DNA from: Myxococcus hansupus
GTDB lineage: Bacteria; Myxococcota; Myxococcia; Myxococcales; Myxococcaceae
NCBI RefSeq assembly: GCF_000280925.3
Contig: NZ_CP012109.1
Location: 6,096,501-6,160,500 of the forward strand
DNA length: 64,000 bases
Direction: 5' to 3'
This document shows, piece after piece, positions 12,108 through 30,776 of the stretch (positions within the stretch are counted from its first letter, which is position 1; each line of letters starts with the position of its first letter). Made by a program: the position numbers and the translations under genes. Under the pieces are notes generated by a model that worked only from the letters and a program-made list of their open reading frames with translations, had not been told where the DNA came from and did no database searches.

Positions 12108-12120
12108 GCAGGCCCCAGCA

Positions 12121-12807
12121 TCAGGCGACCCGTGAGAACCACTCCCCCGTGGAGAACTGGGCCTCCAGCGCCGCTGCCAGGTGCGTGTCCTCCAGCAGCA
12201 CGCCCACTTCGATGTTCCGTGTCTGTCCTCGGTTCGTGAAGTTCGCGGACGTCACGAAGACCCACCGTGCGTCCACCACGACGCATTTCGCATGCAGGCT
12301 GGCGAAGACCCCCTTCCTGGGTGAGAAGCCGTGGCACTCCGGAAAGGGCGGACCGAAGGGCCAGTGCTCCCGCAGGAATGCCGAGGCCACCGGCGCGCTC
12401 GCATAGAGCCTGCCACTCACGCCTCGTCGGAGGGCTTCGTGCAGCGGCCCCAACACGTCCGCCGCGTGGTCGAACGTGAACCCGGCCACCAGCACCGTGC
12501 TCGTGGCCTTGTGGAACAGGTCCGCCAGCACCACCGCCGTGTCGCGAGCGCCGCTCCAGCGGGTCTCCGGCCCCGTCCAGACCAGCTCTGGCCGCCGGGC
12601 CCCCGCGCGCCGCTCCACGAGCACCGCGTCCAGCAACACCAACGTTCCCTCTCGTCCCAGCGCGTTCAACGCCGCGACCTCCCCCGTCAGCCGCTCCAGC
12701 CCCTCTCCCTGGAGCGCCAGACGGGACAACGGAAACCCGAGCCGCCGCGTGCCCACCACGGCCTTCAGCCGCTCCAGGTCCAGCGTCGCCACGCCGCTCA
12801 GGTCCAC
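12121..12807 (-). CDS. drmC: DISARM protein DrmC, phospholipase D-like domain
   Basis: About 228 residues with a single PLD/HKD-type motif, SLHAKCVVVD (H-x-K-x4-D), followed by VFVTSANFTNRGQTRNIEVGVLLED, the typical continuation. One HKD motif per chain implies a dimeric active site. In DISARM systems DrmC is an accessory component reported as dispensable for defence in the Bacillus system. It is the last gene of the operon. The GTG at 12807 overlaps the drmB end by 10 bases; GTG 12792 is an alternative. The frame stays open to 12924, but that portion lies inside drmB and reads as a shadow. Confidence 0.9.
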   Translation of the reverse strand: MDLSGVATLDLERLKAVVGTRRLGFPLSRLALQGEGLERLTGEVAALNALGREGTLVLLDAVLVERRAGARRPELVWTGPETRWSGARDTAVVLADLFHKATSTVLVAGFTFDHAADVLGPLHEALRRGVSGRLYASAPVASAFLREHWPFGPPFPECHGFSPRKGVFASLHAKCVVVDARWVFVTSANFTNRGQTRNIEVGVLLEDTHLAAALEAQFSTGEWFSRVA

Positions 12808-14645: not shown

Positions 14646-17600
14646 GCGCTGCCTCCTCCGTCGCGGCCTTCGGGGCGCGGTAGCCGCCCAGGGGTTGACG
14701 TGAAATCCACAAGTGCACCGAGGACTCCACGTCACGCATGGACGTGGGCGCCTCGAACTTGAGCTCGTCCTGGGTGAGGTTTTCGGTGGGGTCCAGGAAA
14801 CCGCGCAGCAGGGGCTTGAGCCCCTTTCCCTCCGGGTCGTAGGGCGAGTACGCGCGCTGGGCGGCGTCCTTCTTCGCCTGCTCGATGATGTTGCGCCACG
14901 AGTCGAGCAGGCTTCGTGCGCGCTGCATCACGATGCCGCTGGCCCGCTCCGACTCATCCTTGGGAAGCCCTCGGCCCGCGCGCTTCGCCAGGATTTCGAG
15001 CGCCTGCTCCAGCGCATCCCGGTGCGCCTGCAGGGACTTCCAATCCAGGGGCGCGGTCATGGCGGTGTCCAGCAGCCGGCCCAGCGCCACCACCACGCCC
15101 GCGAGCCCCCGGTCGAGCGCCGGTGCTGAGAAGGGTGTCACCGAGGTGGCTTCGACGAAGCGATAGAACGACTCGTGGTACGTCCCGAAGCGCTCGTAGT
15201 GGCTGCGGTCGCGGGGCTTGGCCGCGTTGAGGCACGTCACCACGAGGCCGGGCTTGTTCAGCTTGCGGCCCACGCGGCTGGACGCCTGGATGTACTCGCT
15301 GGTCGTCTTGGGCTGTCCCGCCACGACCATGAGTCCCAACCGGTCGATGTCCACGCCGACGGAGATCATGTTGCTGGCGAGCACGACGTCGATGCTCTGG
15401 GGCTGGCCGTGCGTGAGCTCCAGGCGGTTCTTCGATGCCTTGATGTCAGCGGTCTTCTCCCGGCTGGTCAGCTCGATGGGCTCGCCGCGGATGGTCCTGC
15501 CCCGGTACCAGGGATGCTCGGCCTCTTTGCCGAAGTCCTCGGGACGACGGCGGACTCGGTCCATCACGAGTCGGCGCACCTCGTCCTCGACCAGCCGGCG
15601 CATGCCGCCCAGTTCACGCAGGCTGTTGAAATAGCCGACGAGCGTCAGGTACGGGTCCGCGCTCACGGCGCCGTGAAGTTGTTCGCCGCGCGCGGCGGCG
15701 GCGAGCAGGCTGACATAGACGCGCAGCAGGATGGCCTTCATGGGCCGCCCAGGTGCCGCCACGCCCACGTATTGGCGCGCGCCCTTCTTGCCCACTGAGG
15801 CGAAGAACGTCTCGGAGGCATCCACGCCTGGCGGAGGGAAGAGTGCGACGTCCCGTCCATAGAGGCGACTCACCTGTTGCCGGGAGCGGCGGACGGTGGC
15901 GGTGGAGGCCACCAACTTCGCCCGGGGCGCGAGCGTCAGGACGGCACCTTCGTAGAGGCCCACCATGGAGCCCAGCGGACCGGAGATGAGGTGCAGTTCG
16001 TCCTGCACGATGAGTTCCGGGGGAGGCAGCCCCCTCGGGAGCGTCACGAGCGCAGCCTTCACGTCCGCGGCATCGTTGCACGGGCCGACGAAGCGCTTCC
16101 CGGTGCGCCCCAGGATGCGACCGAAGAGCAATCCCGTCTCTCCACGCCACGGCAGCATGGCGAACTTGTCCACGGTGGCGACGAGGAAACACGGAAGCTC
16201 GCGGTAGATCTGCTCGTCGACGAAGAGGACGGGGAGCCCTTCCGGGTTGCGGCCCAGGTTGAAGGCACACGCGATGTTCGCGCAGCCGACGAGCACTTCC
16301 TCGGGTTTGGACTTGGAGGGCCGGAGGATGAAGCACTCCCGTTCGAACGGCGTCGCGCACCAGGGACAGGTGGCCAGCGGGAAGGGAGATTGCGCGCGGG
16401 CGCTGTTGTCGTTCTTGTACTCGGTGATCTGCGTGGAGGCCTGCTCCAGCGTGTTGGCGGTCGCGGAGCGGCCGACCCACAGTCCGATGGAGAAGCGCAC
16501 GGCGCCCAGGCGTTTCGGCTCTTGCTTGCGGAGCATTTCGAGCGCGCAGATGAGTGTCGCGGCGCGACCCAGTTGGTCGAGGGTGAGCAGCCGCAGCGTG
16601 TAGCGCAGCAGCACGGCCACGCCCAGGCCACCGTGGAGGTGAGCCTGACCTCGGAGGCGGCGCAGGAGAAGCGTGAAGGCAATGAGTCCCAGGTAGGCCT
16701 GCGTCTTTCCGCCACCGGTGGGGAAGAAGATGAGCTCCACGAGTTCGCGGTCCGCGTGGCCTTCGTCCTCGACGGAGGGGAGATTGAGCAAGATGAAGGC
16801 GAGCTGGAAGAGACGCCATTGAGGCGCTTCTTCCTGCCGCACCTTGCGTTCCGACTGGGCCATGACGCTGTTCATCCAGCGGAAGGCGTCGAAGGCGAGA
16901 GGTTCCCGTGTCAGGAGGTTGATGCCATCTTCGATGCGGTCCGCCGCGCGTCGAGCCCTGCGGATGAGCTCATCCCGTGTCTCCTCGCGGCGTTCGCTGC
17001 CCACAGCAATAGTGGCCTGCATGTCCACCCATTCGCGGTAGGCCCGAACCAGGGGGAGCAGAGCCGCGACGGTCTCCGAGGGTGTCGTGAACGCGGCGAG
17101 CTGCTCCATGCCCACCGTGACTTCGTCAATCCGTCGCGCTTCGACTGGGAGCACCTCGACGCGTGGCAGCCAGTCCGTTTCCACGCGGGTGACGGGGACG
17201 GAGGTGGATGAGACGCGCACGGAGATGCCATGGCCCACAGCCCACCGCTGGCGGTCGCGAAACTGGAGGTCGTTGACACGGTCGTCGTCGTCCTCGCTCC
17301 CGGCATCGCTGGAATCCTGTCGGCTGACGAAGCCCTGCTCGCATTCCAGGGCGAGATGGGTCTGGAAGGCATAGGCTTCGTCCCGGTCGACGGCGGTGCT
17401 GGTGGGCGGGCGCGCGTTGACGAGGAAGATGGCGACCGCGAGCTCGCCTTCGCGCGTCTTCTCCACGTGGCCTTCCAGGCGCAGGCCCTGGCTGTCCTGG
17501 AGGTACAGGCCTTCTCGCAGAGCCGCGTCGTTCAGGGACAGGGTGACAGTGCGTTGGTGGAAGGTGCGGCGCCACGGCTTGCGCCCCTCTGCTTCGAGGC

Positions 17601-17970
17601 GCTGGTAGTCCGCCCAGCAGACATGGGCGGTGAGCTGGGTCGTGCCAGCGGGGACGAAGACGGACAGGCCCATGGACGCGGGCAGGCGGCGCACCTTCTT
17701 GGCGGTTGGGTCGGGTCGAGAGGATTCCTCGTTGTCCTCGTCATTGCCTGCGGCCAGGTCGTCTTCCTCGTCGTCGGGGTCGTCCTCGATGACGCCCTGG
17801 TCGAGCGGGACGAGGAAGCCGGTCAGGTACCAGCGGGACGGCGGATTGCGGAGCACTTCCGGGGCATCCGAGACAGGAGCACCTGGAGGCTTGTGGAACG
17901 GACCGACGAGGTCCGCTTCGAGCGCATCAATGAGGTGGGAGCGGACCGCGCCCGTGTCAGGGACATTCAT
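14632..17970 (-). CDS. drmA: DISARM helicase DrmA
   Basis: 1112 residues, an SF2 helicase. An acidic linker lies near residues 60-90. Walker A FPTGGGKT is at 416-423, motif II reads QDELHLISGPLG, motif III STATVRRS, and the motif V/VI block is SNMISVGVDIDRLG...YIQASSRVGRK. A zinc-knuckle-like CPWCATPFE...CANIAC lies between. DrmA with DrmB forms the DNA-binding complex of DISARM that restricts unmodified phage DNA. ATG 17970 begins 8 bases after the drmMI stop. Confidence 0.95.
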   Translation of the reverse strand: MNVPDTGAVRSHLIDALEADLVGPFHKPPGAPVSDAPEVLRNPPSRWYLTGFLVPLDQGVIEDDPDDEEDDLAAGNDEDNEESSRPDPTAKKVRRLPASMGLSVFVPAGTTQLTAHVCWADYQRLEAEGRKPWRRTFHQRTVTLSLNDAALREGLYLQDSQGLRLEGHVEKTREGELAVAIFLVNARPPTSTAVDRDEAYAFQTHLALECEQGFVSRQDSSDAGSEDDDDRVNDLQFRDRQRWAVGHGISVRVSSTSVPVTRVETDWLPRVEVLPVEARRIDEVTVGMEQLAAFTTPSETVAALLPLVRAYREWVDMQATIAVGSERREETRDELIRRARRAADRIEDGINLLTREPLAFDAFRWMNSVMAQSERKVRQEEAPQWRLFQLAFILLNLPSVEDEGHADRELVELIFFPTGGGKTQAYLGLIAFTLLLRRLRGQAHLHGGLGVAVLLRYTLRLLTLDQLGRAATLICALEMLRKQEPKRLGAVRFSIGLWVGRSATANTLEQASTQITEYKNDNSARAQSPFPLATCPWCATPFERECFILRPSKSKPEEVLVGCANIACAFNLGRNPEGLPVLFVDEQIYRELPCFLVATVDKFAMLPWRGETGLLFGRILGRTGKRFVGPCNDAADVKAALVTLPRGLPPPELIVQDELHLISGPLGSMVGLYEGAVLTLAPRAKLVASTATVRRSRQQVSRLYGRDVALFPPPGVDASETFFASVGKKGARQYVGVAAPGRPMKAILLRVYVSLLAAAARGEQLHGAVSADPYLTLVGYFNSLRELGGMRRLVEDEVRRLVMDRVRRRPEDFGKEAEHPWYRGRTIRGEPIELTSREKTADIKASKNRLELTHGQPQSIDVVLASNMISVGVDIDRLGLMVVAGQPKTTSEYIQASSRVGRKLNKPGLVVTCLNAAKPRDRSHYERFGTYHESFYRFVEATSVTPFSAPALDRGLAGVVVALGRLLDTAMTAPLDWKSLQAHRDALEQALEILAKRAGRGLPKDESERASGIVMQRARSLLDSWRNIIEQAKKDAAQRAYSPYDPEGKGLKPLLRGFLDPTENLTQDELKFEAPTSMRDVESSVHLWISRQPLGGYRAPKAATEEAAHDEP

Positions 17971-17978
17971 GGGAGGAC

Positions 17979-20900
17979 TCAGGCGGTCTGGGTGCGGGAC
18001 TTCGAGGGACGGCGTACGGTGGGGTGGGCTTCCTCGTGAGCACGCTGCGCGTTCAGGTCGAAGAGGCGGTCGAGAACTTCGTCTTCGAACGCTTCGAGCT
18101 GCTTGGCAGTGGCGCCGCAGTACAGAGGGGCGTGGATGTCATTCCAGCCGTAGGCATCCAGGACAGCCTGGTCCACGGCCACGTGCAGGTCCCGCAGGCG
18201 CTGGGTCGCAGTGTCGATGACGGACTTGTCCTTAAGCCGATTGTACGTCGTCGTCAGGCCGATGTTGTTGGCTTGCATGTACTGGCTGCGTTCGAAGTGG
18301 AATCGCTTACCTAATGCATCGAGCCCTGATGCTTTGCCGAGAACAGGGAAAGGAAAGGTCTCGAAGCAGTCGCTGGGGGTGTAACGAAGTCGGTCTTCGA
18401 GTGATGACGACAGCAGTCGCGCCCAGACCTCGTGCACACGTGATTGCAGCAGTGTGAGCCAGCGCTCCTGACTAAGGGCGAAGACGCCAGCTGAATGTGA
18501 AAAGACGACGTCCGTTGGCCGCCATTCGAAAGTGAGATGCTTGGAGACAAGGCTGATTGCGAGGCAGCGTTCCGATTTACGAAGTGTTTCCTGGAGTTCA
18601 CTGCGCTTCTCAGCAAACTGCCACCACCACTTGCGGTAACCTCCCCTATTGTTTTTGTCTCGTTCAGGCTTCACCAATTCCCGTACGATGCGGATGAGGT
18701 CGGGCCACCGCTCAGCTTCGGCTAAATCCATTTGCCCAAAGTTGATGACGTGCCTTTCGAGGCTCGACCTAGGGTCAGAGTTGATTTCCTCTCCGCCCAC
18801 ATAGCGAAAGATGCGTTCCGCGTTCCTCGGAGACTTCGCGACGAGCGCTACTCGCTGCTCGGGGCTGAGCACGAACCCCATTCCAAGGACGATGCATCCC
18901 TGGAAGCTCTTCCCTGTGTTAGCGGTGAGGACCAAGGGGTCGGCTCGATCGGGCTTCCCTCTCAGTCGAGAGTTGAGGTGCTTTACAGGCAGATGGTCCA
19001 GCCGCGGCTCCAACTTCAAGTCTGAGACGTGCCCCTTCGCCAGATGCACCACGGACACTGAGACGTTGGCGCCAGCTAACGGCCACTTCATGGAGCGTAC
19101 GGCGTCGTAGAGGTGGCCGCCGTGGTCCACCAGGTACTTCAGTCCAGTGACCCTCGTGTCCCCCTGCGCAATGGTGTTGGTGGCGATAAATCCGAAGCTG
19201 CCGTGTTCACCCAGTAGATGGAACGCACGGCGGAAGAAGTGCGCGGAGAGATCCGCGTTGCCGTGCGCACCCTCATGAACCGTCTGGAGCCAAGGGAGGT
19301 AGTTCTCTCCGCCCGTCTCGATGATGGTGTTCTTTCCCGCAAACGGCGGGTTCCCTACGAACCCATCGATCCAGGCCGTCTTGTTGGGCTGCTCGTTGTC
19401 GAGCGGATCTGGCCGGCTCCCGTGGAAAACCTCAGGGAACTCCAGTGGCCAGTGGAACGTCCCTGACGGTGCGGAGAACGCCGCGATGTCCGCCGGCAGG
19501 GGAGGCAGAACCCCATTCTTCGCCGTGGACAGCCAGGTTCCAATCAGGTTCGACCGGCGGAAACGCTCCTTCTCCCGCTCCTTGTCCGAGCCACGGGCGA
19601 AGAACGCCCCGACGCACGCATTGGCGATCCGTTTGATGTCTTCCAACGCCGCGTCCGCGTCACGGAGAAGCCCCTCCTTTACCCGGCCGGGATCCAGGTC
19701 CAGTTGCAGCGGCTTGCGCTCCGGCCCTTCCAGGTCGAGCGCAAGTTGGAGGATTTCCTCACGCTTCTCCAGGGAGCGCGTCAGTGCCTTCTTGATGAAC
19801 GCCCAGGACAGTTCCGACTGCTTCTTGCTAGTCGGGTCCCAGTGGAACGCTTGAAGCTGATCCAGGTCGAGTCCGACCAACGAATCCCCGCACTTGAGCG
19901 CATGGTCCAGGAATGTGAAGGGCTCCGTCTTCGCCAACGTCACGAGCCACAGCGACAGCTTCGCGAGCTTCACGGCCCATGGATTCTTGTCCACGCCGTA
20001 CAGGCATCGCTGAGCCACCAGCCGGCGTGCCCGCATCACCTCGTCCTCATGCTTGTCACGCTTCAGCACGCCCTCGCGTGTCCAGGCGGCGACAACCTGG
20101 TCCGCGAGAAAGCGGCAGGACTCCACCAGGAACGCACCGGACCCCATGGCAGGGTCGCAGATCTTGAGGTTGAGAAGCCTTTCTGAGGACGGCTGCGGCC
20201 CCATCGTCTTGAGCAAAGGCTCCAAGGCCCGGCGAACAATGGGCGCGGAGATGCTTCGAGGCGTGTAGTGGCTGCTGGTTTGTCGTCGCTCGGCGCCGGG
20301 TTGTAGCACCAACTGGGATGGTCGCCGTGTCTCGGTCCCCTTCACGCGGTACGGCTCAAGCGCGGTCAGGATCATCTGCTGCGTGGACGCCTGCTCCAGC
20401 GCCTTCGACAGAGCTTTCACCGCCTTCGCGTCGAGGCCCGCCACCGCTTCCAGCCATGCAGCACGCCGCTTCGCGGGCTGGACCAGCACCTCGTTCACGG
20501 AGACCCATACCTTCGAGGGCTTGAGGCAGATTCCAGCACCCGTCAGCCGCTTCACGTGGATGCCCATCAGGCCCTCGTACACGGAGCCGATCTGCTCTAC
20601 GTCGAGCGACTTGAAGCTCAGTCGCTGCCCCTTGAGGAAAATGAGCCGCTCAAGGACCTGGAGGACCGTCTCGTCATCAACGGGAGGCACCCGCGCATCC
20701 GTGCTCGCATCGGTGGAACTCGTGCCTCCCAGAAAGGGGAACGTGTCAGGGTCGAAGAGCTGTCCGCGCCGTGCCGGCATTCGCAGTTTGTCGTGCGAGG
20801 CCCCCAGGTAGATGCACCGGAAGAGCGCCAGCAATCGTGGCCACGCACCGAAGCGCCGGTTCATCGAATCGGGGTATTGGCTGGAGTCCTCGACGAGTTG

Positions 20901-21896
20901 CGCGTGAAGTGCCTTCACCGACAGGTCATCGCGGTAGGGCTCCTGGTCCACGGGGAGCAGGCCCCTGTCTTCCGCGTAGAGGATGAAGACGAGCCGCAAG
21001 AGCGTGGAGAGGAGCCCGCCGTAGACGTGGTCCTCATCTCGAGAGAGCGCCTCGTCCAGGGCCCGGGAGCCATCCCGTTCAGCGGCCGTCTCGAAACCCG
21101 TGAGAAGGATGCCTAGCGCTTCCAGTACCTGGTCGGACAATTCGTCAGTGACATCCGCCTGCCGGCGGCGTGACTGCTCCAGGAGCGCGGGAAGTTGATG
21201 CTCGGGCAGCACGCCGAAGAAGCGGCGCGCGTGCAGGAGCATCACCATCGCGTCAAACAGCGGACGACCGCTGGCGGTGACGATGTCCTTGAACCGGAAA
21301 GTGATGTGCCCTGACGTCTCTCCGTGGGGCGCATAGACCAGGCGCACGGAGTCCCCGTTGAACAGCAGCCCGATGGGAACACGGGCCGCGCGCAGCAGGC
21401 GGTCAAACTTGGCGGTGGGCTCGTAGAACCACGTGCCCGTGGTGTCTTCCTTCTTGTCCAGGTCCAACCCGGCCGGCAGTTCCCAGGTCAGGAGCGCGAA
21501 GCCTTCCGCGGCGCGACTGATGGGCGTGGAGTCATCCGGCAACCCTTCCGGTTTCGCGGGAGGAGGCCCTCGTCGCAACAGCCCCCGCGTGGGCTTGATC
21601 GTCTGTTGACCCTCCGCGATGTCGAGTTGGAGGTCCTCCGGAAACACCGAGGTGAAATCATCCTCGGCGTAGCCCAGCACCTCCCGGAGGAAGCGCGGGA
21701 CATCCGTCACGCGAGATGACTCCCGGCCCGCCAGCAGGACGAACCGCGACTGCGCGGACACCGGCAGGCGCTGCATACACTGCGCGTCCTCGAGGACCGG
21801 GATGGAGACCACCAGCCCTTCGAAGGGCTGCGCCATCCCCATCCAGGTCTGGTGATAGCGACGCTCGACGTCCCCGCCAAGATTCTGGCCGCTCAT
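17979..21896 (-). CDS. drmMI: DISARM class 1 adenine-N6 DNA methyltransferase DrmMI
   Basis: 1305 residues. An N-terminal half precedes the methylase core: SAM motif I DPAMGSGAFLVE near residue 580 and catalytic motif IV NPPF (GNPPFAGKN) near 847, the signature of gamma-type N6-adenine methylases related to Eco57I/PglX. The C-terminal part should hold the target-recognition domain. This enzyme marks host DNA so that DISARM ignores it. Start ATG 21896 overlaps the drmD stop as TGATG. DNA at about 18350-19030, in the recognition part, looks lower in GC than its flanks, which may reflect exchange of specificity segments. Confidence 0.93.
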   Translation of the reverse strand: MSGQNLGGDVERRYHQTWMGMAQPFEGLVVSIPVLEDAQCMQRLPVSAQSRFVLLAGRESSRVTDVPRFLREVLGYAEDDFTSVFPEDLQLDIAEGQQTIKPTRGLLRRGPPPAKPEGLPDDSTPISRAAEGFALLTWELPAGLDLDKKEDTTGTWFYEPTAKFDRLLRAARVPIGLLFNGDSVRLVYAPHGETSGHITFRFKDIVTASGRPLFDAMVMLLHARRFFGVLPEHQLPALLEQSRRRQADVTDELSDQVLEALGILLTGFETAAERDGSRALDEALSRDEDHVYGGLLSTLLRLVFILYAEDRGLLPVDQEPYRDDLSVKALHAQLVEDSSQYPDSMNRRFGAWPRLLALFRCIYLGASHDKLRMPARRGQLFDPDTFPFLGGTSSTDASTDARVPPVDDETVLQVLERLIFLKGQRLSFKSLDVEQIGSVYEGLMGIHVKRLTGAGICLKPSKVWVSVNEVLVQPAKRRAAWLEAVAGLDAKAVKALSKALEQASTQQMILTALEPYRVKGTETRRPSQLVLQPGAERRQTSSHYTPRSISAPIVRRALEPLLKTMGPQPSSERLLNLKICDPAMGSGAFLVESCRFLADQVVAAWTREGVLKRDKHEDEVMRARRLVAQRCLYGVDKNPWAVKLAKLSLWLVTLAKTEPFTFLDHALKCGDSLVGLDLDQLQAFHWDPTSKKQSELSWAFIKKALTRSLEKREEILQLALDLEGPERKPLQLDLDPGRVKEGLLRDADAALEDIKRIANACVGAFFARGSDKEREKERFRRSNLIGTWLSTAKNGVLPPLPADIAAFSAPSGTFHWPLEFPEVFHGSRPDPLDNEQPNKTAWIDGFVGNPPFAGKNTIIETGGENYLPWLQTVHEGAHGNADLSAHFFRRAFHLLGEHGSFGFIATNTIAQGDTRVTGLKYLVDHGGHLYDAVRSMKWPLAGANVSVSVVHLAKGHVSDLKLEPRLDHLPVKHLNSRLRGKPDRADPLVLTANTGKSFQGCIVLGMGFVLSPEQRVALVAKSPRNAERIFRYVGGEEINSDPRSSLERHVINFGQMDLAEAERWPDLIRIVRELVKPERDKNNRGGYRKWWWQFAEKRSELQETLRKSERCLAISLVSKHLTFEWRPTDVVFSHSAGVFALSQERWLTLLQSRVHEVWARLLSSSLEDRLRYTPSDCFETFPFPVLGKASGLDALGKRFHFERSQYMQANNIGLTTTYNRLKDKSVIDTATQRLRDLHVAVDQAVLDAYGWNDIHAPLYCGATAKQLEAFEDEVLDRLFDLNAQRAHEEAHPTVRRPSKSRTQTA

Positions 21897-24800
21897 CAAC
21901 GCGCCCCCGGCCACAGGTAGACCATGCCCACTGGCACCAGGCGGGCGACCCGCACCGCATAGGTGGCCCTCAAGGATTCGGGTTGTTCGACGAGCTCCCT
22001 TCCGAGCGCTGCCAATCGCTGCTCAAGATGAACCTTGTCCCTCCTCCACTGGTCCTGCTCCGCCCGGGCGTCGAGCTTGAGTTCGAGCTGCGCGCTCAAT
22101 GCCTCCTGGATGGCCTCCCGCTGCGTCAGGAGAATCTGTGTCAGCGCCTTGGCTTCGGACGCCCCACGGGCCGCTAACTTCTTGCGAGCCCCCTGCTCTC
22201 TCACCGAGGCCTGCTCCTCGATGGCGGGCCAGAGCTTCGAGAAGTCGGACTCGACACTGGCCAGCAGACGTTTCTGGACAGCCTTTGGTATCGAGGAGAG
22301 CGCGGGCGCTTCCGCCAGCGTGGTCTCCAGTTGATCGATCGCCTTGCGGTCCGCATCGTCCGCGAAGGGCTTCAGGTGCCCGCGACCGCCACCGTCCAGC
22401 CACCTTGCTGAAACAGAGACCACCTCGTCATGGAGCCGCGCGGCGCCCTCGCCAAAGAGCGACAACCGGCCGAAGACGATGACGCGTGCCACTGCGTCGC
22501 GCTGGGTCTGAACCACCGAGACACGGCTCAGGTCGTTCGCGGAGAACCCCTGCGCCAGGAACCGCTGAAGCACCCGCTGGACGAGCGGATGGGACAGGTG
22601 CAGGTGGACGAGCTTGCTCGAAACGCCCGGAGGTGCCTCGAAGACGACGGGAGACAGAGGGCGCTTACGCCATTCCCATGCTGCCTCGTCGCGCTCCCGG
22701 CGCGGACGAATGGCATCCAGGGTCGTGTTCCACGAAGCAGGCAGGGCGGGGACCTTCCAGGCTTCCAGCGTCCGGCCCTGTTCCGTGATGGACTCCCGCT
22801 CCAACCGGCCCGCACCGGCCAGCTCGAACCCCACGTCCAGCGCATCGCGCAGCAGGACGGGATTGAAGTCCATCACCTTCCCACTGCGCTCACGGAGTTC
22901 TCCAATCGCATCCAGTTCCTTGCGCAGGGATTGGAGCGTCCGTTGGGACTCCAGTTCCCGCTTCGTCACCTCCGTCCGAGTCGAGGTCGCGGCGCGGGAG
23001 AGGCGCTCCAGCGTGCCCTTCGTGATGCCCGAGGCGAGGGCATCGTGCATCTGGTCCATCAGCACGCAGCCCAGGCTGCCCAGCTCGCGCGTGATGGTCT
23101 CGACCTTGCGCGCGAGGGTGTCGAGCACCGCGTCCTCGGAGCGCTGGCCGTAGACGAAGTAGCCACAGCGCACGGTGGATGCAGGTTGCAAGGCGCGGTC
23201 GATGCGACCGTTGCGCTGCTCCATGCGTGAGGGATTCCACGGCACGTCGATGTGGAAGAGGTCCGCGCAGTGGCCTTGTAGATTGATGCCTTCGCGCGCG
23301 GCGTCGGTCGCGAGGAGGACCCGCACGGGGAACTCCTCCATCGAACCGTTGAAGGCGGCCTGCACCTCCGCGCGCTTTACGTCATCGATGCCACCCGTCA
23401 GCGTGAGGATGCGCTCATCACCCCGTTGGGTCCCCTCGAAGGCGGCGGCGAGCTGCTCCTTGAGGTAGCGGAGCGTGTCGCCATACTCGGTAAAAAGGAT
23501 GACCCGGCGGGGCTTCCACGCGGCGCCTCGGGTGAGCGGGCATTGGTGCTCTCGAATCCAGTGGAGCAGGGCTCGCAGCTTCGCGTCCCGGGCAGTGCGG
23601 TGCCGGGCGCTCAGCTTGAGCATGTCATCCAGGAGCTTGCGCGCCTGGACGCTGGCGGACAGCTCCTGACTGTGCTCGCGGATGGTCTCCGCGAACGACA
23701 GCTCGAGTGCATCGTCCGGCTCGCCATGCTCCTCGGACTCAGGAGCCGTATCGCCGGTGAGCGCTCCGCCGTCGGGAGCCAGCGCCCCCGCGCCGAAGGC
23801 AGCCGCGTGGACGGAGAGGGTGCGATGGAACGCCTCGATGCTGGAGAGGAGGCGCTTTTGGAGGTTAATGAAGACCAGGCGCCCCTGCTTAGTGCCAGGC
23901 GCCATGAGTTCCGTGTAGCGCGCGAGCTTCTGGGACAGTTCCAGTTCCGGGGCGGGGGCTTCGCCCAGGTCGACACGCTGCTCGACGGCCTTTCCGTCCG
24001 GGGCGAGCCACTCAGCGTGCCAGCGTCCCGAGTCATGCGTCAGCCGCACACCCACTACGTGCCGCTCGGGGTAGCGCTGTGAACTGCCCAGGGCGCGCAG
24101 GTCGCCCTTGAGCCGGCGAACCATGACGGGAGCCAACTGTGATTCGCGGACGCGGGTGCCCCGCGTGAAGCGCTGTGGGTCCAACATCTCCAACAGCGCG
24201 GAGAAGCTGTTGGAGTGGCCGTTGTGGGGCGTCGCGGAGAGGAAGAGCCGGTGCTCGAAGCGCTCCGCCAGTGAGCGGATGCTGCGAGTGGTCTCCGTGT
24301 CGATGGCGTACCGGCTGGCCGATGCGGGCGCGACGACGTGCGCCTCGTCGAGCACCAACAAGGACTTGTGGTGCCCCTTCTCCTCCAGGAGGGTCTTCAG
24401 CGGCTCGAAGTACTCGCTGCGCCGCAGCGTCTGGTACGACACGATGAAGCGTGAGTGCGTGGCCCAGACGGGGACCTGGAAGCCGCGCTCCTGACGGCGG
24501 CGGGAGACGAACTCGCTGTTGAAGATTTCGAAGCGCAGGCCGAAGCGCCTCTCCATCTCATCGCGCCACTGGAGCGTCACCGACGCCGGGCAGACGATGA
24601 GGACGCGGTCCACGCGCTGGCGGAGGATGAGTTCCTGCAACACCAGCCCGGCCTCGATGGTCTTTCCGAGACCTACGTCATCGGCGATGAAGAGATTCAC
24701 CCGAGGCAGCTCAAGCGCCTTCTTGAGAGGCGTGAGCTGGTGATTCATCAAGTGGATGCCCGCGCGGAACGGCGCCTGAAAGAGCCGAGCGTCGGTGGCG

Positions 24801-25117
24801 GTGACGGAGCTCCACTTGAGCGCGTGCAGATACGCGGCGAAGTGACGCGGCTCGTCGAAACGCGCAGGCGTTCCCAAGCCACCCTGTTCGGGTCGGACGA
24901 CCCGAGCGGCGAGCTCACGCTCCCACAAGACCGACAGGGAGCGTCCCTGTGCGTCATCATCGAGACAAGTAAGACGAACGAGGGTGTGTTGCTCCCGGAC
25001 ATCCGAAGGAGCAATGACTTCATTGACCAGATACTGACGGTGTCGGACCTGCGCGATATCACCCGCGCACGGCATGGGAGCGATGGGCACGGGAGCAAAA
25101 TCCCGCAGCATAGGCAT
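21896..25117 (-). CDS. drmD: DISARM SNF2-type helicase DrmD
   Basis: About 1073 residues. SNF2-family helicase motifs in order: ADDVGLGKTIEAGL (I), LIVCPASVTLQWRDEM (Ia), LLVLDEAHVV (II, DEAH), LFLSATPHNGHSNSFSALLEML (III), ILFTEYGDTL (IV), LATDAAREGINLQGH (V) and NPSRMEQRNGRIDR (VI). DrmD with DrmMI defines class 1 DISARM. The start is ambiguous: ATG 25117 is preferred because GGGAGG lies 12 bases upstream, and starting there leaves the repeat cluster at 25128-25175 outside the gene. ATG 25189 is possible but has no visible ribosome binding site. First gene of the operon. Confidence 0.93.
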   Translation of the reverse strand: MPMLRDFAPVPIAPMPCAGDIAQVRHRQYLVNEVIAPSDVREQHTLVRLTCLDDDAQGRSLSVLWERELAARVVRPEQGGLGTPARFDEPRHFAAYLHALKWSSVTATDARLFQAPFRAGIHLMNHQLTPLKKALELPRVNLFIADDVGLGKTIEAGLVLQELILRQRVDRVLIVCPASVTLQWRDEMERRFGLRFEIFNSEFVSRRRQERGFQVPVWATHSRFIVSYQTLRRSEYFEPLKTLLEEKGHHKSLLVLDEAHVVAPASASRYAIDTETTRSIRSLAERFEHRLFLSATPHNGHSNSFSALLEMLDPQRFTRGTRVRESQLAPVMVRRLKGDLRALGSSQRYPERHVVGVRLTHDSGRWHAEWLAPDGKAVEQRVDLGEAPAPELELSQKLARYTELMAPGTKQGRLVFINLQKRLLSSIEAFHRTLSVHAAAFGAGALAPDGGALTGDTAPESEEHGEPDDALELSFAETIREHSQELSASVQARKLLDDMLKLSARHRTARDAKLRALLHWIREHQCPLTRGAAWKPRRVILFTEYGDTLRYLKEQLAAAFEGTQRGDERILTLTGGIDDVKRAEVQAAFNGSMEEFPVRVLLATDAAREGINLQGHCADLFHIDVPWNPSRMEQRNGRIDRALQPASTVRCGYFVYGQRSEDAVLDTLARKVETITRELGSLGCVLMDQMHDALASGITKGTLERLSRAATSTRTEVTKRELESQRTLQSLRKELDAIGELRERSGKVMDFNPVLLRDALDVGFELAGAGRLERESITEQGRTLEAWKVPALPASWNTTLDAIRPRRERDEAAWEWRKRPLSPVVFEAPPGVSSKLVHLHLSHPLVQRVLQRFLAQGFSANDLSRVSVVQTQRDAVARVIVFGRLSLFGEGAARLHDEVVSVSARWLDGGGRGHLKPFADDADRKAIDQLETTLAEAPALSSIPKAVQKRLLASVESDFSKLWPAIEEQASVREQGARKKLAARGASEAKALTQILLTQREAIQEALSAQLELKLDARAEQDQWRRDKVHLEQRLAALGRELVEQPESLRATYAVRVARLVPVGMVYLWPGAR

Positions 25118-25127
25118 GTAGGCGCCA

Positions 25128-25175
25128 TACCTCCCGAGTGGTAAACTCCCCGGAGGTAGTACTACCCCAGAGGTA
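25128..25175. promoter_or_regulatory. repeat cluster upstream of drmD, candidate operator
   Basis: Read on the plus strand, CCCCGGAGGTA (25148) and CCCCAGAGGTA (25165) are direct repeats 17 bases apart. TACCTCCCGAG (25128) is the same core inverted. The central GGTAGTACTACC is itself a 12-base palindrome. The arrangement, directly in front of the DISARM operon, is what one expects for binding of a dimeric repressor. No regulator gene is adjacent. Confidence 0.35.
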
Positions 25176-25189
25176 TGCAACAGCCGCAT

Positions 25190-26015
25190 CAAGCCAAATA
25201 GGCTGAGGGCGCCGATACGTCTATCCGCTCAGCGCATAAGCCTTCGTAGCCACCGGCGAAGGTGGAAGCGAAGAAGTAGCGGTCGCCGCGAGTGGATTGG
25301 GCCGGGCCGCGGCAGCATCAAGGCGGACTCAACTCGCCGCCCCCCCCCTCACACAGCTCGTCGCAAAACCAAGCACCACGAACGCGACGCGCTTTCTCAC
25401 GCGCCCCATCCCCCCTTGCTTGCCCGGGCCGAACTGAGCCGCCACGCGGTCGATGAGGTCGAGTTCGCGCAGGTCCCCAGCGTCAGGAGTGCCTTGATGT
25501 CCCCTTCTTTGAGACACCAGGTTCTCAATGTCATCGGCGAGCGCACGGAGAGCTGGGCTCCCAACCGTATCGACATATTCACCTTCCAGCGCGCCGTCCA
25601 CCAGCCCTTCTCGTCCGCCCTCCAGGTGGGTTCCTGCCGCTTCCCCACCCATCCAGCGCCCGCCTACCCTCCGGGCCGTTTGGGAATCACGCTCCGTCGT
25701 TCAGGCTTGCCAGTGTGCGCTCGCGGGGTGTGCCCATTTCAGCTCCCACAGGCGCCCCGTGGGCAGGCGAAACATGCGGAACATCGACGGCACGACGTTC
25801 TTTCACTGAGAAGAAAGTCTCAAAGCGAATCTAAACCAACCATCTCAACTCTCGCACGGAGTCAGGAGACGCGATTGAGGTCAGAGCAGAGATGGACAAA
25901 CAGAGCGCTGTGCATTCCGCAAGTTGCGGGTAGATATGCACCCGCACCATGACCCAGGCCATGGTGCGGGTGCGGTGATTTCGAGTGACGCTGCCTCGAA
26001 GGCGCGGGTCGGCCG
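25190..26015. other. gene-poor region between drmD and the WDVD lipoprotein
   Basis: 825 bases. Open frames on both strands (25416-25952 plus, 25329-25652 minus) exist but neither shows a recognisable family, clear start signal or secretion signal. It may hold decayed coding sequence. The promoter of the DISARM operon should lie at the left end of this stretch. Confidence 0.4.
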
Positions 26016-26690
26016 CTACTGGCTCAAGATGGAGAACGCCATCATGTACGTCCCGGAGCTGCCGTTGGTTCCACGGCTACCGCCCGAATCCACGTCCCAC
26101 CATCCGACGCAACTGTACCCAGGCAAGCAAGGCGGCGCCGAGGAATTGGACGCAACGAGTTCCGCTCGCACGATGCAGCGATTGTTGCTGACTGCGCCAC
26201 TCGCCGTGTAGAGCCCCATCATGTAGCTTCCCCACACGCCATTTCCGCCGAGGCCGCCGGCATCGTCGACATCCCAGTAACCCCGCCCTGTGAAGTTGGG
26301 AGACATCTCCCACGGCAGCCAGCTATCGTTGGAGGACACCATGGCCACCTTCTCGATACAGGTGGTGACAGTATCGGTACTTTCATACCGTGCATACATG
26401 GCCATCATATAGGTCCCCGTACTCCCATTGGTCCCCACACTGCCGGCGTTGTCGACGTCCCAGTAACCCACGAGGGAATAGCCCGCAGGGCCAGGGGGTG
26501 CGGTGTTCCCATTGGATGCACGGAGCTGGATGTCCGTTAGCACTGAGATACCGGAGGCCGTCACCATGCCGTCTGACTCGTGAAATCCCTCTGGCGTCTC
26601 CGCACTCTCCTCCACAGGCGCTCCGCACGCTGAAGCAAGGAGGGATGCAGTGACCAAAGCAAATGAACGGGCAAAATATGACTTTTTCAT
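26016..26690 (-). CDS. lipoprotein with three WDVD repeats
   Basis: About 224 residues starting MKKSYFARSFALVTASLLASACG, a lipoprotein signal with lipobox ASAC. After a short linker the protein has three copies of a roughly 60-residue unit with the pattern GYWDVDxxGxxGTNGxxGTYMM. The copies read YWDVDNAGSVGTNGSTGTYMM, YWDVDDAGGLGGNGVWGSYMM and WWDVDSGGSRGTNGSSGTYMM. Each unit seems to carry one or two cysteines. Aspartate/glycine-rich turns suggest metal or sugar binding, but this is inference. ATG 26696 two codons upstream is an alternative. Base composition is less GC-rich than the core genes. Confidence 0.75.
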   Translation of the reverse strand: MKKSYFARSFALVTASLLASACGAPVEESAETPEGFHESDGMVTASGISVLTDIQLRASNGNTAPPGPAGYSLVGYWDVDNAGSVGTNGSTGTYMMAMYARYESTDTVTTCIEKVAMVSSNDSWLPWEMSPNFTGRGYWDVDDAGGLGGNGVWGSYMMGLYTASGAVSNNRCIVRAELVASNSSAPPCLPGYSCVGWWDVDSGGSRGTNGSSGTYMMAFSILSQ

Positions 26691-26696
26691 ACTCAT

Positions 26697-27125
26697 GAAT
26701 CTCCGAGCTTTGTTGAGATGGCGCATGTCTATCCAGGCGCCATGGAGCGACCCTTCAAATCCCTGAACCTCTCGGGGTAGACGCTCCAAATGACGCAACA
26801 CGGAGAGTGTAATACACTTGACTCGCTGTCGATATGTCAAATTTGCCCCGGGTCAAAGCAACCGTAGAGCCATACTCCCACGAAAGACATTCAATCTTTA
26901 TCGCCTCCTTCTCATCGACACAGCTACGCTCGTCCACCGCTCCCTGAATGCCCATGAGTTGCGGCCTACCCATGGGTCCAGCCCATCTTTACCGTCCTGT
27001 CGAGGCTTGATTATGCCGAGTTCGCGGGCGGGCGGGCGGCGTCATGCGCGTGACCCATTCGGAGAAACCGCTCACATTCAGGAAAGGTGACTCCTCCCCT
27101 CGACCTCCTAAAGCCTAGCCCCTCA
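26697..27125. other. intergenic region, nothing recognised
   Basis: 430 bases between the WDVD lipoprotein start and the nuclease remnant, visibly richer in A/T than the surroundings. The promoter of the lipoprotein gene is expected here. No gene is supported. Confidence 0.4.
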
Positions 27126-27440
27126 GTGATTGCCGGGAGCATCCAGCGACTCAGCGTTTCCCAACTCAAATGCCACAAGCCCGCCCGGCCCCGACCTGCT
27201 TATTGAGCAGCCCCTGAATGGTGAACCGCCACTGACGGCAGGCGACATCCCCTTCACCGGCCGCATTGACCTCGTAGACGCTCGGCGGATCTCCTCTGAC
27301 GGCGTCCTTCGCATCACCGACCACAAGTTCACCAGCAACGTCGCAGCGAATGCCGCGAGCGCTGAGCAGCTCACCGACACCGAACCCGGCTTGCAGATGG
27401 TCGGCGATGGCGAGTGGGCACTCAGCCAGGTTGAGCGTTC
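27126..27440 (+). pseudogene. remnant of a PD-(D/E)XK (RecB/Cas4-like) nuclease
   Basis: Fragments in two frames. In one frame, RLSVSQLKCHK matches the usual start of RecB-type nuclease domains (SVSQLK plus a cysteine). In another frame, DIPFTGRIDLVD...GVLRITDHKFTS carries the D and E/D-x-K active-site block. QMVGDGEWAL follows, as in family helices after the core. The segment between SQLK and the core is missing, and the sequence runs directly into an IS91 transposase tail, so the gene is internally deleted and truncated. Confidence 0.6.
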
Positions 27441-27887
27441 CCCGGGGCTGCGCGCACTGGAGCTGCTCCGCCGGCTGGCCAGCCTGATGCCTCCTCCAAG
27501 GGAAAACCTGACGAGGTTCCACGGAGTCATTTCCCCAGGCGCGAAAGTGTGGCCATTTCCGCTCCCTCAAGCGGGGGCGGAGCCGGTGTTGGAGGAGGAA
27601 GGCCCAGCCTTTGCCGCGACGGTGGAGAAGCCGAGAAAGGAGCGCACACCCCGTTTCGACTGGGCCGGAGTCCTGCGCAGGACGTTCGCTCTGGATGTGT
27701 TCGCGTGCTTGAGGTGTGGAGGCGGGCAGCAGGTCTTGGCGTACGTGAAGGGAGCAGAAGGGGTGAGAGTGATTCTGGAGCACCTGGGGTTGCCCGCGGC
27801 GAGTGCGCACCTGGCCCCTTCGCGAGGGCCGCCTCAGAGCGCCTGGTGTTGAAGCTCAAGCCGCCACGGCCAGCCAAGAGAGCCAGA
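27440..27887 (+). mobile_element. IS91-family transposase, C-terminal remnant (copy 1)
   Basis: The translated sequence reads LRRLASLMPPPRENLTRFHGVISPGAKVWPF, then FDWAGVLRRTFALDVFACLRCGGGQQVLAYV and VILEHLGLPAAS...APSRGPPQSAW. This is the characteristic end of IS91-type (Y2, rolling-circle) transposases, including the C-x2-C zinc pair. The N-terminal catalytic tyrosines are absent. The final KLKPPRPAKRAR tail is in a different frame, so there is also a frameshift near 27830. Confidence 0.75.
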
Positions 27888-28117
27888 CCCCAGCCGCGCC
27901 CCGCCTGGGAAGGCGGCTAGGCAGGCGTGTGTCTGCTGGAGATGAATGGCTTCTGCGCCGACCCAGAGTGAGGCGCATGGGCAACCCGTTAGCGTCCCTC
28001 ACCTCCCGCCCGCTACGTGCGATTAGGCTCCTGTCTTTCCTATGCTCAATATCCGTCCCCGCCAGCACAGTGCTACCCTCCCTCGCCGCAAGGTGGCGAA
28101 TGGGACGGGAGTGACCG

Positions 28118-30046
28118 GTGACAGTGCTCTGGTACCAGTTGGCGATCGTGGTCACGTTGATCTTGGTTCGCCTCATCTCACCGAGGCACTTGCAAGGGGC
28201 CGCGCTGGTCTGGACGGCGTTGACGGTCATCAACCTGTTCTGGCCGCCGCTCATCGCCGTCCAACTGCTTGTCATCTGGGGCACGTACAGCGCTCTTAAG
28301 CGCCTCGCCCCTCCGCCAGCGCCGCCCAAACCAGCCGTCAAGCGCGAGCGCCAGATTATCGACCTCGGTGCCTACGCCCCCCGCGTCCCCGGTGAGTCGC
28401 CCCAGCGTCACGCCCAAGGACAGCTCGACAAGAGCCTTCGGATGCCAATCCCCACCGCCGCCCCCATACCCGCTCCGGCTCCGCCGCCAGTTACAACAGC
28501 AGCGGGGCCTGCGTCCTCATCGGGTAAGCAGCAGCCGCCGCAGGCACCAATCGAGGGAGCGCAGACTGGCACAAGATGGTCGGTTCAGCAGAATGCCATT
28601 TTCGATTTCTTTGCCACGGGGAACGGCAACGCGGTCGTTCGCGCGAGGGCGGGTACGGGCAAGACCACCACCATCCTGGAGGGCATCAGCCACGCGCGCG
28701 AGAGGGCCATCGTGCTTGCGGCGTTCAATAAGCGCATTGCGGACGAGTTGGTGACGAAGCTGAAGAACCCCGCCGCCACTGCGAAGACCCTGCATGGGCT
28801 CGGCTTCGCTGCGGTGAAGACGTACTGGAAGGATACTGCGCTCGATAAGGACCGGGGGCTGGCTCTCGCCCGCCGGGCAGCCGTGGACCAGCGCCCAGAC
28901 CCGATGATGGTCAAGCTCATCCAAAAGCTCGCTGCGTATGGCAAAAACATCGCACCGTTCGGCTCCGTCGCCGATTTGGTCGAGTTGGCGATTCAGTTCG
29001 ACGTCGAACCCGATGCGCAATGGAGCAAGCGCGGTTGGGACACCGAAAAGATCGCCCAATGTGCCCATGAGGCCATGCGGCTTGCCACGCAGCGCGATGG
29101 AACCGTGGACTTCGACGACATGATTTTCGTCCCCGTGGCGATGAAGATGGTCCACCCGAAGTACGACCTCGTGGTGATCGACGAGGCGCAGGACATGAAC
29201 TTGACCCAGCTCCTGCTTGCCCAAAAGCTGGTCCGCAAGGGTGGACGCACGGTGGTGGTGGGCGATGACCGCCAGGCCATCTACGGTTTTCGTGGTGCCG
29301 ACTCGAGGAGCCTTGACCGGCTCAAGAACGAGTTGAACGCGGTCGAGTTTCCCCTAACGACGACCTACCGCTGTCCGAAGAACGTCGTGGCCCTCGCCCA
29401 GCAGCTTGTGCCCGATTACAGGGCCGCAGACACCGCCCCCGAGGGCATCGTTCGCGACATGTCGGAATCGAAGCTGGTGGAGGAGGCCACCCCCGGATGC
29501 TTCATCCTCAGCCGCAAGAACGCGCCGCTCGTCTCGACGTGCATCAAGCTCCTCAAGCGGGGCAAGCGGGCGAAGGTGGAGGGGAAGGACGTCGGGCGTA
29601 GCCTCCTGACCATCGTCAAGAAGCTCGGTGGGACGACCATCGAGACCTTCCTCTCCAAGCTCGCCGCCTGGGAAGACCGTGAGTCGCAACGCGCTCGCTT
29701 GACGGCGAAAGAACCAGAGCCGGTCATCGAGCGCATCGCAGACCAGGCCGGAATGCTCGTGGCCCTGTGCGAGGACCTCCTCACGACGAAGGAGCTGGAG
29801 GCCCGCATCGAGAACCTGTTCGACGATGCCGCCGAAGGCGCCCAGCCTTTCATTGTTTGCAGTTCCGTTCACAAGGCCAAGGGGTTGGAGCGCGAGAGGG
29901 TGTTCCTCCTCAAGGACACGTTCAGCCGGTCCGGAACGGAAGAATGCAACATCGAATATGTTGCGATTACGCGCGCAAAGCAGGAGTTGATCTGGGTGGT
30001 CAACGAGGCCGCGAACCGTTCACAGGCGGGGCACCGGAACCGATAG
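28118..30046 (+). CDS. membrane-anchored UvrD/Rep-like (SF1A) helicase
   Basis: 642 residues. Residues 1-60 contain two hydrophobic segments (LWYQLAIVVTLILVRLI and VINLFWPPLIAVQLLVIW), followed by a 90-residue Pro/Ala/Gln-rich linker. From about residue 155 comes a UvrD-type helicase: Q-motif-like WSVQQNAIFDF, Walker A ARAGTGKTTT near 177, VVIDEAQDMN near 351, GDDRQAIYGFRGAD, TTYRCP, and motif VI YVAITRAKQEL near 612. The membrane tether is unusual for this family. A nuclease domain is not visible. Start GTG 28118. The gene stands alone between two IS91-family tails. A role in defence against incoming DNA is only inferred. Confidence 0.85.
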   Translation: MTVLWYQLAIVVTLILVRLISPRHLQGAALVWTALTVINLFWPPLIAVQLLVIWGTYSALKRLAPPPAPPKPAVKRERQIIDLGAYAPRVPGESPQRHAQGQLDKSLRMPIPTAAPIPAPAPPPVTTAAGPASSSGKQQPPQAPIEGAQTGTRWSVQQNAIFDFFATGNGNAVVRARAGTGKTTTILEGISHARERAIVLAAFNKRIADELVTKLKNPAATAKTLHGLGFAAVKTYWKDTALDKDRGLALARRAAVDQRPDPMMVKLIQKLAAYGKNIAPFGSVADLVELAIQFDVEPDAQWSKRGWDTEKIAQCAHEAMRLATQRDGTVDFDDMIFVPVAMKMVHPKYDLVVIDEAQDMNLTQLLLAQKLVRKGGRTVVVGDDRQAIYGFRGADSRSLDRLKNELNAVEFPLTTTYRCPKNVVALAQQLVPDYRAADTAPEGIVRDMSESKLVEEATPGCFILSRKNAPLVSTCIKLLKRGKRAKVEGKDVGRSLLTIVKKLGGTTIETFLSKLAAWEDRESQRARLTAKEPEPVIERIADQAGMLVALCEDLLTTKELEARIENLFDDAAEGAQPFIVCSSVHKAKGLERERVFLLKDTFSRSGTEECNIEYVAITRAKQELIWVVNEAANRSQAGHRNR

Positions 30047-30228
30047 ATGCCAGCCTCCACAGAGCGCCTGCCCTGACATGCATCCTGACGGGCGGCTCCA
30101 GAGTCCGGCCGCCTTCCCCCTGGACTTCCTCCCGTCGCGTTCTGTCTAGCTTCGCCGACGCCCTTGCGGTGACACACCGAAGGGGCAAATACGGGGCACA
30201 TGTTCCAAGCGCTTGGGGCCCCTAGAAC

Positions 30229-30371
30229 GGCTCCGGAGCGCCCTGCGCGGAGGCGGAGCAGGGGCTGAAGGAGGAGAGCCCAGTCTTTGAACTCAAGCCT
30301 CCACAGCCAGCCAAGAGAGCTAGAGACGCCAAGGGGGCACACCGCGGGCACATGAGGCCACGCGGGCAAAC
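30229..30371 (+). mobile_element. IS91-family transposase C-terminal tail (copy 2)
   Basis: The frame reads EQGLKEESPVFELKPPQPAKRA and continues RDAKGAHRGHMRPRG. The part VFELKPPQPAKRAR matches VLKLKPPRPAKRAR of copy 1. At DNA level 30292-30324 and 27855-27887 agree at 30 of 33 bases. Only the tail is present, in the same orientation as copy 1 and ending next to the ssrA 3' end. Confidence 0.55.
30292..30324 (+). repeat. direct repeat of 27855-27887 (30/33 identical)
   Basis: Begins CTCAAGCC and ends AGCCAAGAGAGC plus AGA. The three differences are single substitutions. Both copies come from the IS91 transposase tail and bracket the helicase gene. Confidence 0.7.
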
Positions 30372-30404
30372 AAAAAGCCCAGCAACCTCGCGGCTGCTGG
30401 GCTT
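30372..30404 (-). terminator. rho-independent terminator of ssrA
   Basis: On the minus strand AAGCCCAGCA and TGCTGGGCTT form a perfect 10-bp stem with a 10-base loop, followed by a T-tract, 10 bases after the ssrA 3' end. Confidence 0.85.
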
Positions 30405-30413
30405 CTCACTCAG

Positions 30414-30776
30414 TGGAGGCGGCGGGAATCGAACCCGCGTCCGAAAGCCGTCCGTCCTTCGACCCTACGTGCGTAGTCCGCGATTTGCTACGTCCCTGAG
30501 GCTCCCACGGACGGGATACTCAGAGCCGGTCCTGGAAAGGTCTCGCCACCTCGGGTCCAGGCGCCCTCGGAAGCCAGCCTGCATTATGACGGTCCATCCC
30601 AACCCCACAGGCAGAGGGCGAGGGGACCGCGCACTATGGGCTGTTTTTAGGCAGCCAGCGCGAGCTCAACGTTGTCGTTGGCTTTTGTGTCTTTGCCGGG
30701 TTGGATTTACGAGCTACCAGACAAGCTCGGCACGCGTCTCGAACTTCATTGCCCCCGTCGAAACCAGGTCGCCCCC
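30414..30776 (-). ncRNA. ssrA: transfer-messenger RNA (tmRNA)
   Basis: 363 bases. The 5' end GGGGGCGACCTGGTTTCGACGGGGGC and the 3' end with GCGGGTTCGATTCCCGC then CGCCTCC and A form the tRNA-like domain; the 7-bp acceptor includes one G-U pair. The terminal CCA is not encoded (the next bases are CTG). The tag frame at 30682-30647 reads GCC AAC GAC AAC GTT GAG CTC GCG CTG GCT GCC TAA, giving tag ANDNVELALAA. With SmpB it rescues stalled ribosomes. ssrA 3' ends are well-known integrase targets, which fits the mobile DNA on that side. Confidence 0.97.

Follow-up and report, generated by a model that had tools for sequence, protein, structure and literature searches.

A gene in the 64,000-nucleotide stretch of Myxococcus hansupus DNA analyzed here (the window) encodes a putatively membrane-anchored SF1A helicase, whose hydrophobic N-terminal module (N-module) looks like an addition to a helicase of phage/plasmid type, seen so far only in Myxococcaceae. 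Sequence comparisons support the anatomy of the protein, the constraint on its N-module, its phage/plasmid-type ancestry, its mobility, and its independence from an adjacent DISARM operon. The parts are of known kinds; the combination, the constraint, and the common N-module appear to be new. Our tentative reading is that the motor is tethered and serves in mobile-element conflict.

Table 1. Features of the helicase gene and its surroundings, in window coordinates
Feature	Position	Strand	Basis or remark
DISARM operon drmD, drmMI, drmA, drmB, drmC	12121-25192	-	
Segment without blastn match in G024, between DISARM and tmRNA, holding the helicase	25257..30410	.	
ISCR/IS91-like transposase C-terminal remnant	27427..27852	+	37% tblastn identity, across residues 21-139 of 141, to a feature on a plasmid annotated ISCR1
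51-nt repeat, upstream copy, at 3' end of transposase remnant	27837..27887	+	family D2
Conserved 48-bp leader with ribosome-binding sequence	28070..28117	+	in blastn, the window copy starts to match the other four full copies at -48
Putatively membrane-anchored SF1A helicase gene	28118..30046	+	642 aa, GTG start
N-terminal hydrophobic module, residues 1-61	28118..28300	+	hydropathy, AlphaFold helices, conservation, profile search
Disordered Pro/Ala-rich linker, residues 62-150	28301..28567	+	dN/dS, pLDDT, column variability
Helicase core, residues 151-630, phage/plasmid type	28568..30007	+	PHROG_1967, Pfam UvrD-helicase, alignment
Walker A AGTGKTT, residues 178-184	28649..28669	+	
Walker B DEAQD, residues 355-359	29180..29194	+	
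51-nt repeat, downstream copy, 80% identical	30274..30324	+	family D2
tmRNA gene	30413..30776	-	copies of the 3' end lie elsewhere in several relatives; inferred hotspot for integration

Layout of the protein

The hydrophobic N-module (residues 1-61) is followed by a linker rich in Pro and Ala (about 62-150) and then by a full SF1A core (151-630). The mean Kyte-Doolittle value of residues 1-61 was 1.29, versus -0.16 for the whole protein, and 156 of 20,000 shuffles of the protein contained any 61-residue window as hydrophobic as the N-module. An AlphaFold model based on a 50-sequence alignment (mean pLDDT 84.5) placed helices at residues 2-19 and 22-63 (pLDDT of these blocks about 62-83), fell below 50 in the linker (69-140 and 146-149), and exceeded 90 over most of the core. 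The SF1A motifs AGTGKTT, DEAQD, GDDRQAIYGFRGAD, TYRC, HKAKGLE, and VAITRAK were found, named according to the usual scheme. Hydropathy, motifs, model, and conservation thus bear out the preliminary description of an SF1A helicase behind a hydrophobic N terminus and a long flexible linker.

The conserved hydrophobic helices are of membrane-spanning length on the basis of hydropathy, the AlphaFold model, and conservation, as in an integral membrane protein, and probably keep the DNA motor at the cell membrane. The second AlphaFold helix includes N-L-F-W-P-P-L-I and is drawn as a single helix, so that the model has two helices in total, the number originally described; read by eye, the N-module may instead form three short membrane helices (4-20, 25-41, and 45-60), the second and third joined by a W-P-P turn. 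The chain would accordingly cross the membrane three times with the N terminus outside or twice with the N terminus inside, and R18/R23 and K61/R62 would favor a cytoplasmic helicase. A turn within the second helix would leave both basic clusters and the helicase in the cytoplasm.

Conservation of the start codon and the N-module

Full-length copies were found in five Myxococcaceae genomes: the window genome (G000), Pyxidicoccus caerfyrddinensis (G022, locus L021), Myxococcus eversor (G013, locus L023), G134, and G128. The other four copies have ATG or GTG at the matching codon after GGGAGTGACCG, from which M. eversor differs by one base, and the N-module is kept in frame in all five. When the ungapped columns of the five copies were counted (gapped columns were skipped), 12 of 61 were variable in the N-module, 41 of 62 in the linker, and 82 of 477 in the core, so that the N-module differed from the linker (Fisher p = 2e-7) and not from the core (p = 0.59). 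The dN/dS values of the window copy versus the P. caerfyrddinensis and M. eversor copies were 0.25-0.26 (residues 1-61), 0.92-0.95 (linker), and 0.17-0.25 (core); for the closest pair compared, P. caerfyrddinensis versus M. eversor, they were 0.36, 1.23, and 0.41-0.51, respectively. The linker evolves nearly neutrally. A codon-position test on the window and P. caerfyrddinensis pair gave no significant difference between N-module and linker (Fisher p = 0.14). We conclude from these comparisons that the N-module is translated and constrained, being as conserved as the core.

These data bear directly on whether the protein is an ordinary soluble helicase with its true start past the hydrophobic part, a start that the preliminary description had named as one finding that would refute its proposal. 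Most inspected viral and plasmid relatives do start near the core, but the start codon and leader are conserved in five genomes, the N-module is constrained like the core when the linker is not, and the same N-module begins an unrelated protein (see below). We regard a soluble helicase as very improbable. The related concern that homologs might always lack the N terminus holds for the inspected relatives outside Myxococcaceae and fails within the family, where five of the six helicase copies have it. The sixth, from Corallococcus carmarthensis, lacks the N terminus through a deletion that also took the ATP-binding loop; in this copy (L022, about 9940-11278) about 685 bp are missing, from -48 to +636, removing the N-module and Walker A.

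The N-module also precedes an unrelated protein

We screened IMG/VR and 195 Myxococcota genomes with a profile of the N-module, and the contig search across genomes used the window protein. Seven of the 195 genomes matched at E <1e-30, five of them with the helicase; weaker matches in the phylum (G088, G074, and G157, E 0.001-0.003) were not counted as N-module members. In the remaining two genomes, G121 (276 aa) and G143 (205 aa), an N-module 56-59% identical to that of P. caerfyrddinensis stands ahead of non-helicase sequence, and the G143 form carries a 251-bp out-of-frame deletion. These orphan proteins lie at L040 8777-9607 and L041 9461-10078, the second copy being frameshifted. Their C-terminal sequence had no blastp similarity to the helicase, and the C-terminal part of the G121 protein had no meaningful Pfam, PHROG, PADLOC, or PDB match and no phage or plasmid match. 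It was present only in G121 and G143 among 193 genomes and, as read from its sequence, is probably a coiled coil. The occurrence of the same N-module ahead of an unrelated protein in two other genomes points to a transferable module.

Across both architectures (seven sequences), 32 of 63 N-module positions, start Met included, are invariant, among them N39, W42, P43, P44, Q49, W54, and Y57. Silent changes between the two architectures showed no significant excess (third positions accounted for 20 of 54 differences, p = 0.33), so the case for constraint across architectures rests on the identity itself. The N-module had no meaningful match to Pfam, PHROGs, or PADLOC. We also asked whether viral relatives have the N-module next to them as a small gene of its own, and rejected this idea: an HMM run over 189 loci matched strongly only in the seven known genomes and a viral-contig duplicate, with weak matches at L035/L057 (E 4e-4), L034 (E 0.005), and L058 (E 0.04).

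The extent of identity invites a different reading of the protein, in which the core would be the sensor, for phage DNA or forks, and the N-module the effector, killing or stalling an infected cell by forming a leak or pore. The 32 invariant positions exceed what a passive anchor seems to need, and the N-module precedes two unrelated C-terminal parts; however, neither the database searches with the N-module nor the silent-change test lends this reading support, and we consider it quite unlikely. It is doubtful, too, that the N-module is a plug-in effector or docking piece for varied cytoplasmic sensors, with a captured phage-type helicase detecting phage DNA at the membrane and the module causing a leak there. 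If true, one protein would provide immunity by coupling a helicase sensor to a membrane effector, an arrangement of which we know no example.

The core is of phage/plasmid type

The best PHROG for the window protein was PHROG_1967, phage DNA helicases (E 5.6e-85, 287 bits, residues 152-632 on profile positions 151-672 of 776). Pfam gave UvrD-helicase (2.7e-26) and UvrD_C_2 (1.3e-9), and no nuclease domain was found in the Pfam scan of the protein. Pfam, the motifs, and a Foldseek match to Deinococcus radiodurans UvrD (E 2e-23) agree on an SF1A (UvrD/Rep-like) fold, which is shared with UvrD, Rep, and PcrA, the best PDB Foldseek matches; the chains of these enzymes are 647-724 aa long versus about 480 aa for the window core. 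A housekeeping UvrD, PcrA, or Rep was rejected, with scores of 61-73 bits versus equivalog cut-offs of 911-1144 (TIGR01073-01075). Of the UvrD/Rep identity first assigned, the fold therefore stands, but the core belongs to the phage/plasmid family PHROG_1967 and not to UvrD/Rep proper. The window genome has other UvrD-like genes, with partial matches of up to 39% identity.

With the window protein as query, tblastn gave matches in 245 phage records and 1005 plasmid records; none reached 80% query coverage, and among the 60 matches listed all start at residue 133 or later. The PHROG_1967 phage helicases (for example those of Pseudomonas phage JG054, Virus Rctr197k, and Salinibacter phages) align with the core over residues 152-632; eight named phage proteins were 32-37% identical to the window protein, with the same motifs and a similar C-terminal end. 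The nearest uncultivated viruses, among the best 80 of 582 relatives, reached 42-46% identity. We compared 72 viral relatives from these best 80 (minus nine partial or weakest, L122, L133, L139, and L142-L147, plus L049) and scored the longest open extension ahead of each core by Kyte-Doolittle hydropathy over 19 residues (>1.6). More than 40 residues preceded the core in nine of the 72 and a hydrophobic N-terminal extension in none, which suggests that the N-module was added to a phage/plasmid-type helicase.

The ancestry of the core underlies the main rival of the conflict role, namely that the protein is a mobile element's own replication helicase, anchored at the membrane to organize its forks. 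The phi29 proteins p1 and p16.7, membrane-associated DNA-handling proteins of a mobile element like the one proposed here, are described in PMC4974454 as proposed organizers of phage replication at the membrane, so that such anchoring has a described parallel. The core falls in a phage/plasmid helicase family, two of four inspected plasmid relatives lie near topA or PRTRC genes, and one copy is on a predicted viral contig. Set against this are the absence of a hydrophobic extension from all 72 viral relatives and the flanks of the other four full copies (about 8-17 kb inspected per side; 1.8 kb on the left of G128), in which no phage gene cluster or replication gene was recognized by eye. We judge replication anchoring to be somewhat unlikely.

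Copies, flanks, and mobility of the gene

The five full copies have in common a block from about -112 (-48 in the window, -81 in G134) to about +1893, and their flanks differ. Among ORFs around eight loci, predicted with a simple caller trained on window ORFs, only two protein pairs recurred from one locus to another: a transposase remnant (window and G134) and a 99-residue match (M. eversor and G121). A full match was present in 3 of 27 genomes of the genus. We compared dS of the helicase with that of a housekeeping ORF at 49668-51839, presumably polynucleotide phosphorylase (the G128 version is in two pieces and was left out). The respective values were 0.063 versus 0.229 for M. eversor and P. 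caerfyrddinensis, 0.149 versus 0.340 for P. caerfyrddinensis and G134, and 0.182 versus 0.378 for M. eversor and G134. For the window copy, they were 0.255 and 0.255 with P. caerfyrddinensis and 0.283 and 0.248 with M. eversor. Values below the housekeeping level indicate recent transfer between the other copies; for the window copy the two are alike and give no such indication.

The 51-nt repeat flanks the window gene on both sides. At M. eversor and G143, a transposase remnant homologous to the one upstream of the window gene lies at most 0.7 kb upstream of the copy; at C. carmarthensis and G134, such a remnant is 3-5 kb downstream. None was found by tblastn near the P. caerfyrddinensis, G128, and G121 copies, although blastn did show the G121 locus to be homologous to the remnant of M. 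eversor. The P. caerfyrddinensis copy lies on a viral contig of IMG/VR, a predicted prophage, identical in the unit and its 4-kb flanks; a tail match (E 7e-12) and a weak holin match (E 2e-4) are nearby, and a short methyltransferase-like ORF adjoins the gene. It is the only one of the five full copies on an IMG/VR contig, and the surroundings of the window copy held no phage genes recognizable by eye. Differing flanks, transposase remnants, the viral-contig copy, and low dS between the other copies all fit the mobile segment of the preliminary description, and on these comparisons the helicase gene moves alone between species.

Two further observations concern individual loci. The G134 copy (L038 8700-11267) reads on to 855 aa, with a C-terminal tail of about 230 residues and no further Pfam match. 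In the window, 26016-26780 (minus strand) encodes what by eye is a putative lipoprotein; it contains three G-Y/W-W-D-V-D repeats and has no match in Pfam.

Mobility of this kind could also mean that the gene is a transposon passenger that is decaying, has been spread by IS91/ISCR-like elements, and plays no selected role in the hosts it now occupies. Transposase remnants or ORFs surround copies, and damage is seen in C. carmarthensis (Walker A lost), in G134 (the C-terminal read-on), and in the non-helicase form of G143 (the deletion). The helicase motifs are nevertheless intact in five copies, and dN/dS is well below 1 for core and N-module versus the window copy, if less low in the closest pair (0.36-0.51). 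We find passenger status unlikely.

Relationship to DISARM and the tmRNA gene

In the window operon, drmD, drmA, drmB, and drmC reach NCBIfam cut-offs and drmMI matches PADLOC. A relative, G024, has the same DISARM (93% nucleotide identity over window 12120-25256) adjoining tmRNA with no helicase between, the DISARM-tmRNA gap being about 0.86 kb versus 5.15 kb in the window, and this genome had no full-length match to the helicase protein. An HNH-endonuclease-like ORF, recognized by eye, sits between DISARM and tmRNA in G024 (L184 18394-18792). Around seven other loci, five with the helicase (full or truncated) and two with the non-helicase protein, none of 117 ORFs matched the five window DISARM proteins by blastp (E <= 1e-3), and ten neighbor proteins chosen by eye from five other loci matched no PADLOC model at 1e-5. 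The helicase thus does not co-occur with drm genes in G024 or at the seven other loci. An accessory part of the neighboring DISARM, which adjacency within the window might suggest, is hardly credible given the same DISARM without the helicase in G024, the lack of DISARM homologs among those 117 ORFs, and the opposite strand of the helicase. Because G024 has DISARM by tmRNA without the helicase, we take the adjacency to be accidental, and the DISARM association originally noted is not upheld.

In several Myxococcus-group genomes, the tmRNA 3' end (window 30380-30443) recurs on the same contig at distances of 2 to 78 kb, and such repeated ends probably mark integrated elements. A second copy of the 65-base end was not found in the window, where the best ungapped matches were 34/65 (plus strand) and 36/65 (other strand). 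An ARAGORN tmRNA call at 29778-30503, marked with an asterisk, overlaps the helicase gene and was ignored. The G024 arrangement together with the repeated tmRNA ends suggests that the helicase and DISARM have a common hotspot, not a common system.

Comparison with known systems

Gabija GajB is also a short UvrD-like helicase and matched the window protein (PADLOC E 1.6e-31; Foldseek rank 46). One GajB model matches 50 of 50 members of the family alignment, mostly viral, so this match is generic. GajA had no match among the five window DISARM proteins or the ten neighbors from five other loci (window ORFs 26016 and 30991 lay outside the scan). Gabija was set aside, the GajB similarity being generic and no GajA being recognized beside the window helicase. 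The core of F-box DNA helicase 1 (FBH1) was among the sequence and structural matches (19% identity in the structural alignment); FBH1 is eukaryotic and F-box fused. To our knowledge, GajB has no membrane module, and phi29 p16.7 and p1 are not helicases. In the titles and abstract openings of the open-licence literature, we found no description of a membrane-anchored SF1A helicase.

Proposed role

Membrane insertion, topology, polarity, and biological role are proposed here from the features described above. Residues 1-61 would insert into the inner membrane, and the disordered linker of about 88 residues would give the motor access to DNA near the membrane. The core, in which the motifs for ATPase activity and translocation are intact, would act as a cytoplasmic motor, presumably of 3'-5' polarity as in its family. 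The tethered motor would engage foreign or replicating DNA at the membrane and unwind or strip it, and the gene would serve as a superinfection-exclusion or immunity gene carried on mobile DNA. We favor a conflict role because the gene moves alone, its motor is intact, and it would be held where incoming DNA appears. Against this role, the ten scanned neighbors are not defense genes, the protein lacks a nuclease domain of the sort that many helicase-based defenses have, the gene is rare, and some copies (C. carmarthensis and G134) are damaged. The whole explanation, a mobile single gene for an inner-membrane-anchored SF1A translocase used in mobile-element conflict, is therefore put forward as a possibility held at somewhat less than even confidence.

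An anchor common to an unrelated protein suggests an exchangeable membrane module of Myxococcaceae, of which we found no description. SF1A helicases are normally soluble, yet the putative anchor of this family is as conserved as its motor, which makes the family suited to testing directly whether, at the bacterial membrane, DNA motors operate against mobile DNA or in its favor.
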